A stretch of 64,000 nt of DNA from assembly GCF_016820575.1 (NCBI RefSeq), contig NZ_JAEMQH010000002.1, positions 1,366,933 to 1,430,932 of the forward strand. Direction: 5' to 3'. The position numbers were made by a program, and so were the translations under genes. This DNA comes from Marinobacter sediminum (GTDB lineage Bacteria; Pseudomonadota; Gammaproteobacteria; Pseudomonadales; Oleiphilaceae). A model generated the notes under the pieces. That model did no database searches. It saw only the letters and a list, made by a program, of their open reading frames with translations, and was not told where the DNA came from. Positions within the stretch are counted from its first letter, which is position 1, and every line of letters begins with the position of its first letter. This document shows positions 29,780 to 59,377 of the stretch, piece after piece.

Positions 29780-29887
29780 GCAGGCACAGCATAAGCCGAC
29801 CAAAAACCGCGACGAGCACGTCCCTGTGTGCTTCTCTCCGGCCTTCCATGGCCTACGAGATTTTTGATCGGCTTATCCTGCGCCCGC
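29780..29887 (+). repeat. palindromic intergenic element, copy A
   Basis: 27-nt arms at 29780-29806 and 29861-29887 pair with four mismatches and close a 54-nt core (29807-29860). The core contains ACGAGCACGTCCCTGTG and GGCCTTCCATGGCC. The same core, in the opposite orientation, occurs at 47321-47374 with completely different arms. It sits in the apbC-dcd gap. An upstream extension of the dcd reading frame would translate it and should be ignored. Confidence 0.8.
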
Positions 29888-29925
29888 GATCGAAGCTGGA
29901 ACCTCTGACCCGAAGCCTCTCTCAA

Positions 29926-31026
29926 TCAGTGTTCGGTAACGGACACGCTGGAGATCGAACCGGACAGGTTACGCTCACGGGTGGACAGCTCCGCACCAAC
30001 CCGGCGGGCAATGTCCCGGTAGCGGCGCGCCACTTCGGAATCCGGCTCGGCCACCACCGAGGGCTGGCCGCCGTCGGTCTGTTCGCGGATGGTCATGTGC
30101 AGGGGCAGCTGGCCCAGCAGGGTGGTGTCGTATTCGTCGGCGATGCGCTCGCCGCCACCGTGGCCGAACAGGGGCTCTTCGTGGCCGCAGTTGCTGCAGA
30201 TGTGCACGCTCATGTTCTCGACCACACCCAGCACCGGAATATCCACTTTACGGAACATCTCGATGCCTTTCTTGCCGTCCAGCAGGGCAATGTCCTGGGG
30301 TGTGGTGACGATTACCGCGCCGGTGACCGGGACTTTCTGGGCCAGGGTAAGCTGGATGTCGCCAGTGCCCGGGGGCATGTCGACGATCAGGTAGTCGAGC
30401 TCGTTCCACAGGGTCTGCTGCAGCAGTTGCATGACCGCGCCGCTGACCATTGGCCCACGCCAGACCATGGGGGTTTTGTCGGTGACCACGAAGGCCATGG
30501 AGTTCGCCTGAAGGCCGTGGGCTTCCATGGGCACGAAGTATTTGTTTTCACGGGTGTCCGGGCGCTTGCCTTCGGGCACGCCCAGCATCATGCCGATGCT
30601 TGGGCCGTAGATGTCGGCGTCCAGGATGCCCACGCGAGCACCTTCGGCCTGCAGGGCAAGGGCCAGGTTGACGGCGGTGGTGGATTTGCCAACGCCGCCC
30701 TTGCCGGAGGCCACGGCAATAATGTTCTTCACACCCGGCACCGATGGCAGTTCTTTCTGCACTTTGTACGAGTGGATCTTCTGGCCCACGTGAACCTCGG
30801 CGCTTTCAACGCCGTCCACGTTTTCCAAAGCCACCGACACCAACTGCTTCAGTGCGCCAGCAATACCTTTGGACGGGTACGGCAACTCGACCATCAGCGT
30901 GACTTTGCCCGCCTCATCGGTGTTCAGGGCCTTTACGGCATCCAGTTCGTACAGGTCCTTCTGGAGATACGGATCGCGGTATTCGCGAATCGCCGTTTGC
31001 AGGGCCTGCTCTGAAATCTGTGTCAT
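29926..31026 (-). CDS. apbC: iron-sulfur cluster carrier protein ApbC/Mrp
   Basis: P-loop NTPase that binds and delivers Fe-S clusters. The ATG at 31026 follows CCGGAG and gives 366 residues (E. coli Mrp 369). The N-terminal MIP18-like domain covers about residues 1-80; the deviant Walker A is SGKGGVGKST, with LDADIYGPSIGMMLG and MPPGTGDIQLTLAQ after it. The cluster-ligand motif CSNCG is in MSVHICSNCGHEEPLFG. Divergent from metG, as in many gammaproteobacteria. The upstream in-frame ATG at 31065 lacks good ribosome-site spacing. Confidence 0.95.
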   Translation of the reverse strand: MTQISEQALQTAIREYRDPYLQKDLYELDAVKALNTDEAGKVTLMVELPYPSKGIAGALKQLVSVALENVDGVESAEVHVGQKIHSYKVQKELPSVPGVKNIIAVASGKGGVGKSTTAVNLALALQAEGARVGILDADIYGPSIGMMLGVPEGKRPDTRENKYFVPMEAHGLQANSMAFVVTDKTPMVWRGPMVSGAVMQLLQQTLWNELDYLIVDMPPGTGDIQLTLAQKVPVTGAVIVTTPQDIALLDGKKGIEMFRKVDIPVLGVVENMSVHICSNCGHEEPLFGHGGGERIADEYDTTLLGQLPLHMTIREQTDGGQPSVVAEPDSEVARRYRDIARRVGAELSTRERNLSGSISSVSVTEH

Positions 31027-31166
31027 CGGGTTCTCCGGAATAAGCTCATGCTTCATTTTAAGCATGGAAACAGGGGATTCGGGTGAAAAATATCTGCTCG
31101 GAAGGTATCATCTGTGCCCGTTTCTGACCACACAACCCCTATTCTGAAGAAAGGTTCGGACACACC

Positions 31167-39420: not shown

Positions 39421-39458
39421 CAGACCAGATCGGGGCCAAATCTGACTGCATCAGAACG

Positions 39459-39488
39459 AAAAAGCCGGCACTCAGAGCCGGCTTTTTA
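39459..39488. terminator. terminator between nth and the chalcone-isomerase-like gene
   Basis: AAAAAGCCGGC, a short loop, then GCCGGCTTTTT: a GC stem with A/T tracts on both sides, able to end both convergent transcripts. Confidence 0.9.
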
Positions 39489-39503
39489 CTAAGACAGCGA
39501 TGT

Positions 39504-46568: not shown

Positions 46569-47270
46569 TCAGAAACGGCTGAGAATAAAACCAGCAAGAT
46601 CCAGATCCGCAGGAACCGTGACCTTGATGTTGTCAGGCCGGCCTTCAACCAGTACCGGCATGGTACCGGAAAACTCCATGGCAGAGGACTCATCCGTGAT
46701 CGGTAACCCAGCCTCCAGGGCTTTTTCGAGCGCAGCCACCAGCGACGAATAGCGAAACATCTGCGGTGTTAGCGCCCGCCACAGCGGGCGCCGGTCCACG
46801 GTCTCCTGAACTTCCGGATTCTCACCCGGGCCCGCTTTCTTCAGCGTGTCCGCAACCGGCGCCGCCAACAGTCCGCCAACCGGGTGGTCGGACAGGGTGT
46901 CGATAAGCCTGCTCAGATCCTCACCATGCACGCACGGCCGCGCCGCATCGTGCACCAGAACCCAGTCATCGTCCCCAGCCTGGCCAGCCAACGCACGCAG
47001 CGCCGCCAACACCGAATCCGCGCGCTCGGCACCGCCCAGGCACGTCTGAATACGCTCATCCTGACTGGACTCGGTAGTCGGCCACCAGTGGTCCGTGGGA
47101 TTCAAGGGAACCATACAGCCGGCAAATTGGGCAGCATTCAGCACACGTGAGAGGGTGATATCGAGAATAAAACGGGAATCAATACGAAGGTACTGCTTGG
47201 GGCATTCAGCCTGCATTCGCTGGCCAATCCCAGCAGCAGGAACAATAAGCCAGAGGTTGGATTCAGTCAT
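46569..47270 (-). CDS. ispD: 2-C-methyl-D-erythritol 4-phosphate cytidylyltransferase
   Basis: Third enzyme of the MEP pathway: couples MEP with CTP. 233 residues from the ATG at 47270 (E. coli 236). The CTP-binding loop is VPAAGIGQRMQAECPKQY, the active-site stretch VLVHDAARPCV, and TDESSAMEF is also conserved. The frame runs upstream into the palindromic element at 47294-47401, whose translation (MAADIPGKGSLADLPT) is not part of IspD. Preceded by ftsB. Confidence 0.96.
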   Translation of the reverse strand: MTESNLWLIVPAAGIGQRMQAECPKQYLRIDSRFILDITLSRVLNAAQFAGCMVPLNPTDHWWPTTESSQDERIQTCLGGAERADSVLAALRALAGQAGDDDWVLVHDAARPCVHGEDLSRLIDTLSDHPVGGLLAAPVADTLKKAGPGENPEVQETVDRRPLWRALTPQMFRYSSLVAALEKALEAGLPITDESSAMEFSGTMPVLVEGRPDNIKVTVPADLDLAGFILSRF

Positions 47271-47293: not shown

Positions 47294-47401
47294 GATCGGC
47301 GAGGCTGCCTTTTCCGGGAATGTCTGCGGCCATGGATGGCCACAGTCAAGCGCACATGGATGTGCTCGTAGCGGTTCCCGGGAAAGGTAGCCTCGTCGAT
47401 C
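47294..47401 (-). repeat. palindromic intergenic element, copy B
   Basis: 27-nt arms at 47294-47320 and 47375-47401 pair with three mismatches around a 54-nt core (47321-47374). On the minus strand the core has ACGAGCACATCCATGTGC and GGCCATCCATGGCC, each a 6-bp hairpin with a CC turn. The core matches copy A at roughly three quarters of positions, while the arms do not match. It lies inside the ftsB-ispD operon. Confidence 0.8.
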
Positions 47402-47420: not shown

Positions 47421-47693
47421 TTAGTTCTCTACGACAAGAAAGAAGGTTTCGTCTTCGCGAATCAAACCAAGGTTCATTCTGGCTCTTTCCTCCACCGCGC
47501 TCTGCTCATTACGCAGGTTACGAACCTCCGCGTAGAGACGCTCGTTACGGGTCGCCAGGTCGGAGTTCTCCTCACGCTGCTCAGCAATAGACTTTTCCAG
47601 CGCCCAGACCTGCGCAAAGCTGCCCTCCCCGACCCACAGGCGCACCTGCAGCAGGAGTATCAGCACAATCATTGTGGTCCAGAGCAACTTCAT
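47421..47693 (-). CDS. ftsB: cell division protein FtsB
   Basis: Small bitopic septal protein that forms the FtsQ-FtsB-FtsL complex. 90 residues (E. coli 103): membrane helix at about residues 5-21 (WTTMIVLILLLQVRLWV), then a periplasmic coiled coil (VWALEKSIAEQREENSDLAT) and the conserved ARMNLGLIREDETFFLVV end. First gene of the ftsB-ispD-ispF-truD run, with its own promoter upstream. Confidence 0.95.
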   Translation of the reverse strand: MKLLWTTMIVLILLLQVRLWVGEGSFAQVWALEKSIAEQREENSDLATRNERLYAEVRNLRNEQSAVEERARMNLGLIREDETFFLVVEN

Positions 47694-58717: not shown

Positions 58718-58756
58718 TTCCGGCCGCAAGCCGGAAACCTCACGTTCATTCCTTAG

Positions 58757-59377
<621 letters not shown>

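Follow-up and report, generated by a model that had tools for sequence, protein, structure and literature searches.

A dispersed intergenic element of Marinobacter sediminum with privately paired arms and a candidate CsrA-binding core

The window, a stretch of 64,000 nt from the genome of Marinobacter sediminum, holds two copies of an intergenic element in which a core is enclosed by two arms that pair with each other. For the structure, copy 1 is informative on the + strand and copy 2 on the − strand. The copies, their parts and their neighbouring genes are as follows.

47294..47401, + strand: copy 1, whole element (112.1 bits, covariance model positions 1-108)
47421-47693, − strand: ftsB, with the start codon of ispD at 47270, also − strand; neighbours of copy 1, which is antisense to both
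47294..47320, + strand: copy 1, 5' arm, 27 nt, pairing with 47375-47401 (24 Watson-Crick and 3 G.T pairs)
47321..47374, + strand: copy 1, 54-nt core, from the alignment
47328..47341, + strand: copy 1, hairpin 1, GGCCATGGATGGCC, with a loop of the CANGGANG type
47352..47365, + strand: copy 1, hairpin 2, GCACATGGATGTGC, which fits ACANGGANGU
47375..47401, + strand: copy 1, 3' arm, 27 nt, pairing with the 5' arm
29780..29887, − strand: copy 2, whole element (97.8 bits, covariance model)
29926-31065, − strand: gene upstream of copy 2, presumed Mrp/ApbC-type; its stop lies 38 nt before the element, which is sense to it
29684, − strand: start codon of dcd, the gene downstream of copy 2; the element lies upstream of dcd and sense to it
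29861..29887, − strand: copy 2, 5' arm (23 Watson-Crick pairs, 3 G.T pairs and 1 mismatch)
29807..29860, − strand: copy 2, 54-nt core, with hairpin 1 at 29840-29853 and hairpin 2 at 29816-29829
29780..29806, − strand: copy 2, 3' arm, pairing with the 5' arm of copy 2

Pfam profiles matched DivIC (an FtsB-type protein) and IspD at the neighbours of copy 1 and DCD and NUBPL/ParA at those of copy 2; the NUBPL/ParA gene is one that we take to encode an Mrp/ApbC-type ATPase. A first-pass annotation of the window had described both copies, with 54-nt cores and 27-nt arms, and positions and lengths were confirmed. The core likeness of about three quarters that it gave corresponds to 41 agreeing positions of 54 in opposite orientation, its 3–4 arm mismatches to three non-Watson-Crick pairs in copy 1 (all G.T) and four in copy 2 (three G.T and one other), and the two small hairpins described in the core of copy 1 are present.

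BLAST searches of the own genome (3.72 Mb, 11 contigs) returned 24 matches for copy 1 and 11 for copy 2, and a covariance model of the stem and the two hairpins was built from an alignment of 24 copies and run on the same genome, a search that the first-pass annotation had recommended. Of the 57 rows at E ≤ 1, 55 were full length (all E ≤ 2.2e-12), so the core is not limited to the two copies in the window; the others were a partial, interrupted copy (C1:1033327) and one row at E 0.3, which was ignored. Core length was 52–57 nt in 54 of the 55 copies (mostly 54, with subtypes of 52, 53 and 57) and 135 nt in one, which is extended by an insert of about 82 nt. Named genomes were scanned with a pattern, which gave at least 114 stretches, and among the 80 matches listed 79 were titled Marinobacter and one Halomonas. 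Matches occurred in 42 of 58 genomes searched (own included), among them all 37 of the genus, where copies per genome ranged from 2 to at least 67 (numbers were taken from the best 67 scored candidates, the high values being lower bounds). Across the class, with the best 10 candidates scored per genome, 54 of 369 genomes matched (own included), in 49 of 272 genera.

Two CANGGANG motifs were present in all 54 own copies of ordinary length, in 45 of 46 copies of G028, the closest of 41 genus genomes (FtsB 99%, Dcd 100%), in 111 of 115 genus copies (three of the four without them are opposite-strand reads) and in 26 of 33 class copies, and the two GGAs are spaced by 22–25 nt. The hairpin-loop consensus feature of CsrA/RsmA, ACANGGANGT, was found in 52 of the 54. 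Among the invariant columns of the first alignment are ACA.GGA.GT in hairpin 2 and GCCA.GGA.GG in hairpin 1, and the core hairpins covary across the class (in an alignment fitted to the structure). The SELEX consensus given for CsrA is RUACARGGAUGU, with ACA and GGA fully conserved and loops mostly of 6 nt (PMC7652899). The sRNAs that sequester CsrA/RsmA (RsmX/Y/Z, CsrB/C) resemble the element in their GGA hairpins fitting the CsrA consensus, whereas they are described as dedicated sRNA genes with several sites (PMC7652899) and the element is a two-site unit scattered through the genome at gene ends. The CsrA-related RNAs described for Alcanivorax are two sRNAs, not repeats (PMC9788540). A single PF02599 match places csrA of the own genome at C4:1366405-1366560, just before the window, and the encoded protein is a close match to CsrA/RsmA chains of known structure (best 3.9e-30). 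By its sequence, the core resembles a pair of docking sites for the global regulator CsrA, although CsrA alone may not account for it, since AAGCG and AGCGG, outside the loops, are also conserved in the 24-copy alignment.

The element was compared with TwoAYGGAY (RF01731), an RNA reportedly listed by Weinberg 2010 and for which Gardner and Eldai are said to have proposed CsrA binding. At the gathering threshold, Rfam gave no match over the window. In the own genome, RF01731 gave 31 matches at E ≤ 10, the best of which (39.4 bits) lies below the gathering score of 43, and all 31 fall on these elements, on the same strand and over the full model (1-168). A permissive Rfam search of seven loci matched RF01731 at full length (1-168, stem paired) in three, with up to 35.9 bits, and two microRNA families and others also matched weakly. 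The external closing stem and the order of parts of RF01731 are found in the aligned copies. Two loops of the CANGGANG type are present in all 54 own copies of ordinary length, with a first variable base that is often A or G rather than the Y of AYGGAY. RF01731 has an Rfam clan id in common with RsmY. TwoAYGGAY has been reported from the human gut, gamma-Proteobacteria and Clostridiales (PMC2864571), has been proposed to bind CsrA, its external stem being noted as poorly conserved (PMC4333381), and is the subject of further papers (PMC11661157, PMC11701678). A long, poorly conserved external stem, two ANGGAN-loop hairpins and a CGG after hairpin 2 are common to both; the element differs in its score below gathering, in its first loop base and in its 55 dispersed copies per genome, in both orientations to genes (a count for the element only, copy numbers of TwoAYGGAY carriers not having been compared). 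Because the full-length, same-strand matches lie below the cut-off, the element is called a TwoAYGGAY-type lineage, and on sequence grounds we read it as a divergent, high-copy TwoAYGGAY-type RNA that is not a formal member of RF01731. The link to TwoAYGGAY and CsrA formed no part of the first-pass annotation.

Rather than a jumping gene, the element is probably a regulatory RNA in many scattered copies. The explanation that we favour, with better than even confidence, is a dispersed TwoAYGGAY-type RNA that would serve as a CsrA clamp and whose stem would be kept by selection on the core-strand RNA together with template switching. Its fold would be a three-way junction, in which a closing stem of 27–28 bp displays the two ANGGAN-loop hairpins 23–25 nt apart. 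We infer that transcription on the core strand passes through the element and that one CsrA/RsmA dimer would clamp both loops of the transcript; the tens of copies would have their regulatory effect as local CsrA-responsive 3'-end or UTR elements and jointly form a distributed CsrA sink. The stem would be needed as a fold and not as a sequence, with pairing kept by selection on the core-strand RNA, and template switching between the arms at replication would renew both arms in blocks and sometimes flip the core.

By placement, as judged from simple ORF calls (away from the window copies, from gene calls by composition only), the 55 own copies are convergent in 18 cases, sense in 16, antisense in 11 and divergent in 3, with 7 not fully classified, and about a fifth are antisense to both neighbours. 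At the ftsB-ispD site an element in the same orientation was found in 12 of 30 congeners (own included, one cut by a contig end), with arms that are related but changed; since copy 1 and its orthologues are antisense to ftsB-ispD, a core-strand transcript is not assured there. Placement at gene ends (18 convergent vs 3 divergent) without clear regard to orientation, together with a very stable core-strand fold (z −7.5 to −10.5, five copies folded), would also suit a REP-like 3'-end stem that protects transcripts or borders transcription units, its GGA loops serving another protein or none. This is unlikely in our view, because ANGGAN is kept in both loops class-wide (26/33 with two CANGGANG) and plain stem protection needs none. 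Nor is the element an ordinary intrinsic terminator: in none of the 55 copies does TTTT occur within 15 nt 3' of the 3' arm, and two have it within 30 nt, while on the other strand five have it within 15 nt.

The 27-nt arms pair within every one of the 55 full-length own copies, the reverse of the prevalence of unpaired arms that the first-pass annotation had named as fatal to its idea of covarying arms. Of the 55 copies, 38 have a 28th pair, and beyond it the count of paired copies drops to 7–21 at each of five further positions; the stem in the own genome is 27–28 bp. Within the arms, partial conservation is seen in the inner 9–11 bp, with a preference for G at 5'-arm positions 10-11, and the outer ~16 nt are private to each copy. 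As had been claimed from the two window copies, no arm sequence is common to two copies of the own genome: the best outer-arm match between two copies within one genome reaches 25 of 38 positions, and in the 23 own pairs whose cores are identical at ≥53 positions the arms match at only 8–23 of 38. Compensatory change, which the same annotation had suggested looking for, is seen in the 24-copy alignment, where both sides have changed in 26 of the 27 arm pairs and the covariation score is 0.734, far above the shuffled (0.194) and slid (0.126–0.185) controls, so the arm pairing is not chance. The reading of the element as structured, its core conserved and its private arms covarying under pairing selection, is thereby borne out.

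In other genomes of the class, 28 of 29 loci have 20 or more of the 27 arm positions paired, every arm pair shows both-sided changes (the alignment having been fitted to the structure), and 33 of the 34 copies in the 29 loci measure 105–109 nt, a length that the model favours. Positions outside 27 still pair in 22, 16, 15 and 10 of 28-29 class loci. A stem fixed at 27 bp throughout the class was therefore rejected, pairing often running past position 27 outside Marinobacter, and because of this and the preference of the model for 108 nt the limit of 27–28 bp is claimed for the own genome only.

The arm pairs of the 55 own copies are biased with respect to strand. Read on the core strand, defined as that on which hairpin 2 reads ACANGGANGT, the arm cells (n = 1485; C1:1385797, absent from the first arm count, is included) comprise 1360 Watson-Crick, 75 G.T, 3 A.C and 47 other pairs, the last being 44 purine-purine vs 3 pyrimidine-pyrimidine. 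A G.T on one strand is an A.C on the other, so a double-stranded cruciform predicts no bias, and the excess (75 vs 3) means that selection acts on one strand in a folded, single-stranded form, most likely as RNA. The orientation of host transcripts was rejected as the cause, the bias being similar whether copies are sense (29 vs 2) or antisense (17 vs 1, 12 copies). Among 115 copies from named genomes, nearly all Marinobacter, the counts are 84 vs 14 (121 rows, 115 counted; at least three are opposite-strand reads of a copy, which lowers the bias), and outside the genus the bias is weaker (17 vs 7 in 31 copies from other genera; of 34 rows in the class set, 31 were counted for arm pairs and 33 for loops).

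In a rival reading the core strand would act as folded single-stranded DNA, in replication, recombination or the nucleoid, with gene orientation irrelevant. G.T is also the milder mismatch in DNA, sense placement has no strong excess (16 sense vs 11 antisense), and some orthologues are flipped between congeners. We nonetheless find a role at the DNA level rather improbable, as the loops fit the consensus of an RNA-binding protein that the genome encodes, and as copies on both contig strands have a similar wobble bias, so that exposure of the leading or lagging strand is no obvious common factor.

For the comparison with G028, the 48 matches in that genome were used, together with the places where an own copy has no partner. 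An element was found at the orthologous place for 46 of the 55 own sites: 36 are in the same orientation and ungapped, 7 are flipped and 3 are altered or degraded (C9:10795, C1:800036 and C4:85796). Eight sites have no model-found element and one (C1:760026) is placed in none of these groups. There were eight flip candidates, of which C4:85796 was judged to lie at a different place. Over the 36 sites, the arm cells (n = 972) comprise 658 unchanged, 89 changed on one side and 225 changed on both sides, against about 75 expected from independent change at the arms' own rate, and 110 of the 225 lead from one Watson-Crick pair to another without a G-U path. The both-sided changes are clustered (21 sites with 2-24 changes), with 40 adjacencies, a value reached in 0 of 5000 permutations (positions 1-22; mean 21.7) and 0 of 400 margin-preserving swaps (mean 31.8); C4:1287810 differs from its partner in one 4-bp block changed on both sides and one other position. 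At one of the seven shared sites with the element in opposite orientation in G028, C1:905235, some of the arm sequence has kept its position, and it is the core that flipped. Immediate flanks are replaced too at some arm-changed sites.

Arm differences range from 0 to 33 of 54 positions per site, at 27.7% per site (36 sites), and their correlation with flank identity is close to nil (Spearman 0.08; 34 of the 36 sites). In a control over 46 kb of the window, divergence from G028 was 14.8% at third codon positions and 5.7% in aligned intergenic sequence (two element sites included). General decay was rejected as the source of the arm differences, which exceed both controls and do not follow flank identity. 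Ectopic conversion, in which new arms would be taken from another copy, was likewise rejected, no donor for new arms having been found among the 55 own and 46 G028 copies. Core divergence (8.8%) is above that of the intergenic control (5.7%), and conservation of each single copy is therefore not proven. Elsewhere in the window, the intergenic stretches more diverged from G028 are 29850-29925 (75%), which overlaps copy 2, and 39421-39503 (83%) and 58730-58771 (67% identity), at which no element was found; the other aligned ones are 92–100% identical.

Template switching between inverted-repeat arms is described as homogenizing the arms and inverting the spacer (PMC8604942). It has also been put forward as a way in which RNA stems arise and persist, and argued to be able to skew base-pair frequencies (PMC8794818). 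Inverted repeats evolved in this way are like the present elements in block homogenization of arms, spacer inversion and double changes without G-U intermediates (PMC8604942, PMC8794818); the cases given there are yeast genes and rRNA/miRNA stems, whereas here many paralogous bacterial elements are concerned at once. Template switching, which we infer as the cause, would yield both the block changes and the flips, and part of the arm bias may come from the mutational process (PMC8794818). Taken by itself, this mechanism, documented elsewhere (PMC8604942, PMC8794818), would make the elements largely neutral palindromes whose pairing is renewed by switching alone, with no selection on the fold, in keeping with the both-sided blocks (110 of 225 from Watson-Crick to Watson-Crick without a G-U path), the 7 flipped sites and a core divergence from G028 that is not exceptionally low. 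Such neutrality appears quite improbable, for the strand-biased mismatches (75 vs 3; 44 vs 3) are unpredicted by switching alone, the core hairpins covary class-wide in the structure-fitted alignment, and arm pairing is maintained in 28 of 29 class loci (≥20/27 positions). Because template switching alone does not give G.T over A.C, the bias is read as selection on the core-strand RNA.

A broader proposal is offered tentatively: Marinobacter and many other Gammaproteobacteria may possess a genome-wide CsrA sink and sensor, made of tens of two-loop clamps at gene 3' ends, in which template switching continually rewrites the free stems on both arms at once and flips the clamp where it lies, and selection holds only the fold and the two loops. 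Accounts of CsrA control usually involve the protein, the mRNAs that it regulates and a small number of sponge RNAs. Were CsrA bound by dozens of dispersed two-site RNAs, the level of free CsrA would be tied to genome-wide transcription, a different circuit layout, and TwoAYGGAY would gain a high-copy system in cultured bacteria for testing the CsrA hypothesis. The many paralogues and orthologues are also a natural data set on long RNA stems that change sequence while staying paired, with both-sided block changes seen directly between close species.

The first-pass annotation had offered as an alternative a passive mobile element moved by a hairpin-recognising, Y1/RAYT-like transposase encoded elsewhere, and had suggested a search for a RAYT/IS200-type gene and a comparison of empty sites. 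The PF01797 (Y1_Tnp) profile gave no match in the own genome, with controls matching in 5 of 14, and the core gave no match in plasmid and phage collections. Y1_Tnp is present in 23 of the 41 genus genomes searched (own included); among the 37 with copy numbers it occurs in 14 of 26 high-copy and 7 of 11 low-copy genomes, leaving 12 of the 26 high-copy genomes with none, and the number of Y1 matches has a Spearman correlation of −0.08 with element copy number (37 genus genomes, own included; high copy numbers are lower bounds). One Marinobacter genome, G004, has 22 Y1_Tnp matches and only 6 elements. Seven of the eight own sites without a G028 element could be aligned, and none of the seven shows a clean insertion with target duplication. 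Two keep arm remnants: the element-less site at C1:792845 keeps 22 nt of the 3' arm, and C1:1113323, which keeps remnants of both arms, therefore reads as a deletion. An origin of the arms as inverted target copies made at insertion, which the site at C1:792845 had brought to mind, was set aside for lack of any polarised case (no clean insertion; C1:1113323 like a deletion), though not disproved. Like the element, REP/BIME repeats with RAYT are short and palindromic, lie between genes in many copies and sometimes form inverted pairs; the element differs from them in that its terminal sequence (the outer arms) is not conserved among copies, that the own genome has no Y1 match and that it is mostly kept at orthologous G028 sites. 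Although copy number varies from 2 to at least 67 across the genus, movement by a Y1/RAYT-like transposase is very improbable given the PF01797 results, G004, the arms not common between copies, the 46 of 55 sites occupied in G028 and the absence of clean insertions.

The privacy of arms holds in the own genome and fails in a distant gammaproteobacterium, G128, where 8 of 9 copies read have identical or nearly identical arms, an outcome that the first-pass annotation had named as one that would undo its idea of covarying arms. The G128 copies sit inside a larger repeat, about 370 bp long and dispersed, that often lies close to contig ends, and the element there is, to judge from this setting, carried by something else. 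In the own genome, four divergent, BIME-like pairs lie between gene ends (C4:142135/142339, C4:411297/411498, C4:1287505/1287810 and C9:10795/11417), and the members of such pairs have unrelated arms. Structured inserts of ~80–95 nt within a GGA loop were seen at five loci, including C1:381351-381539 of the own genome, where the extra structured segment lies in the loop of hairpin 1 and carries further GGA hairpins. Inserts in hairpin 2 occur in several species, at G028:777294, at one locus each in G060 and G018, and at C1:1033327 of the own genome.
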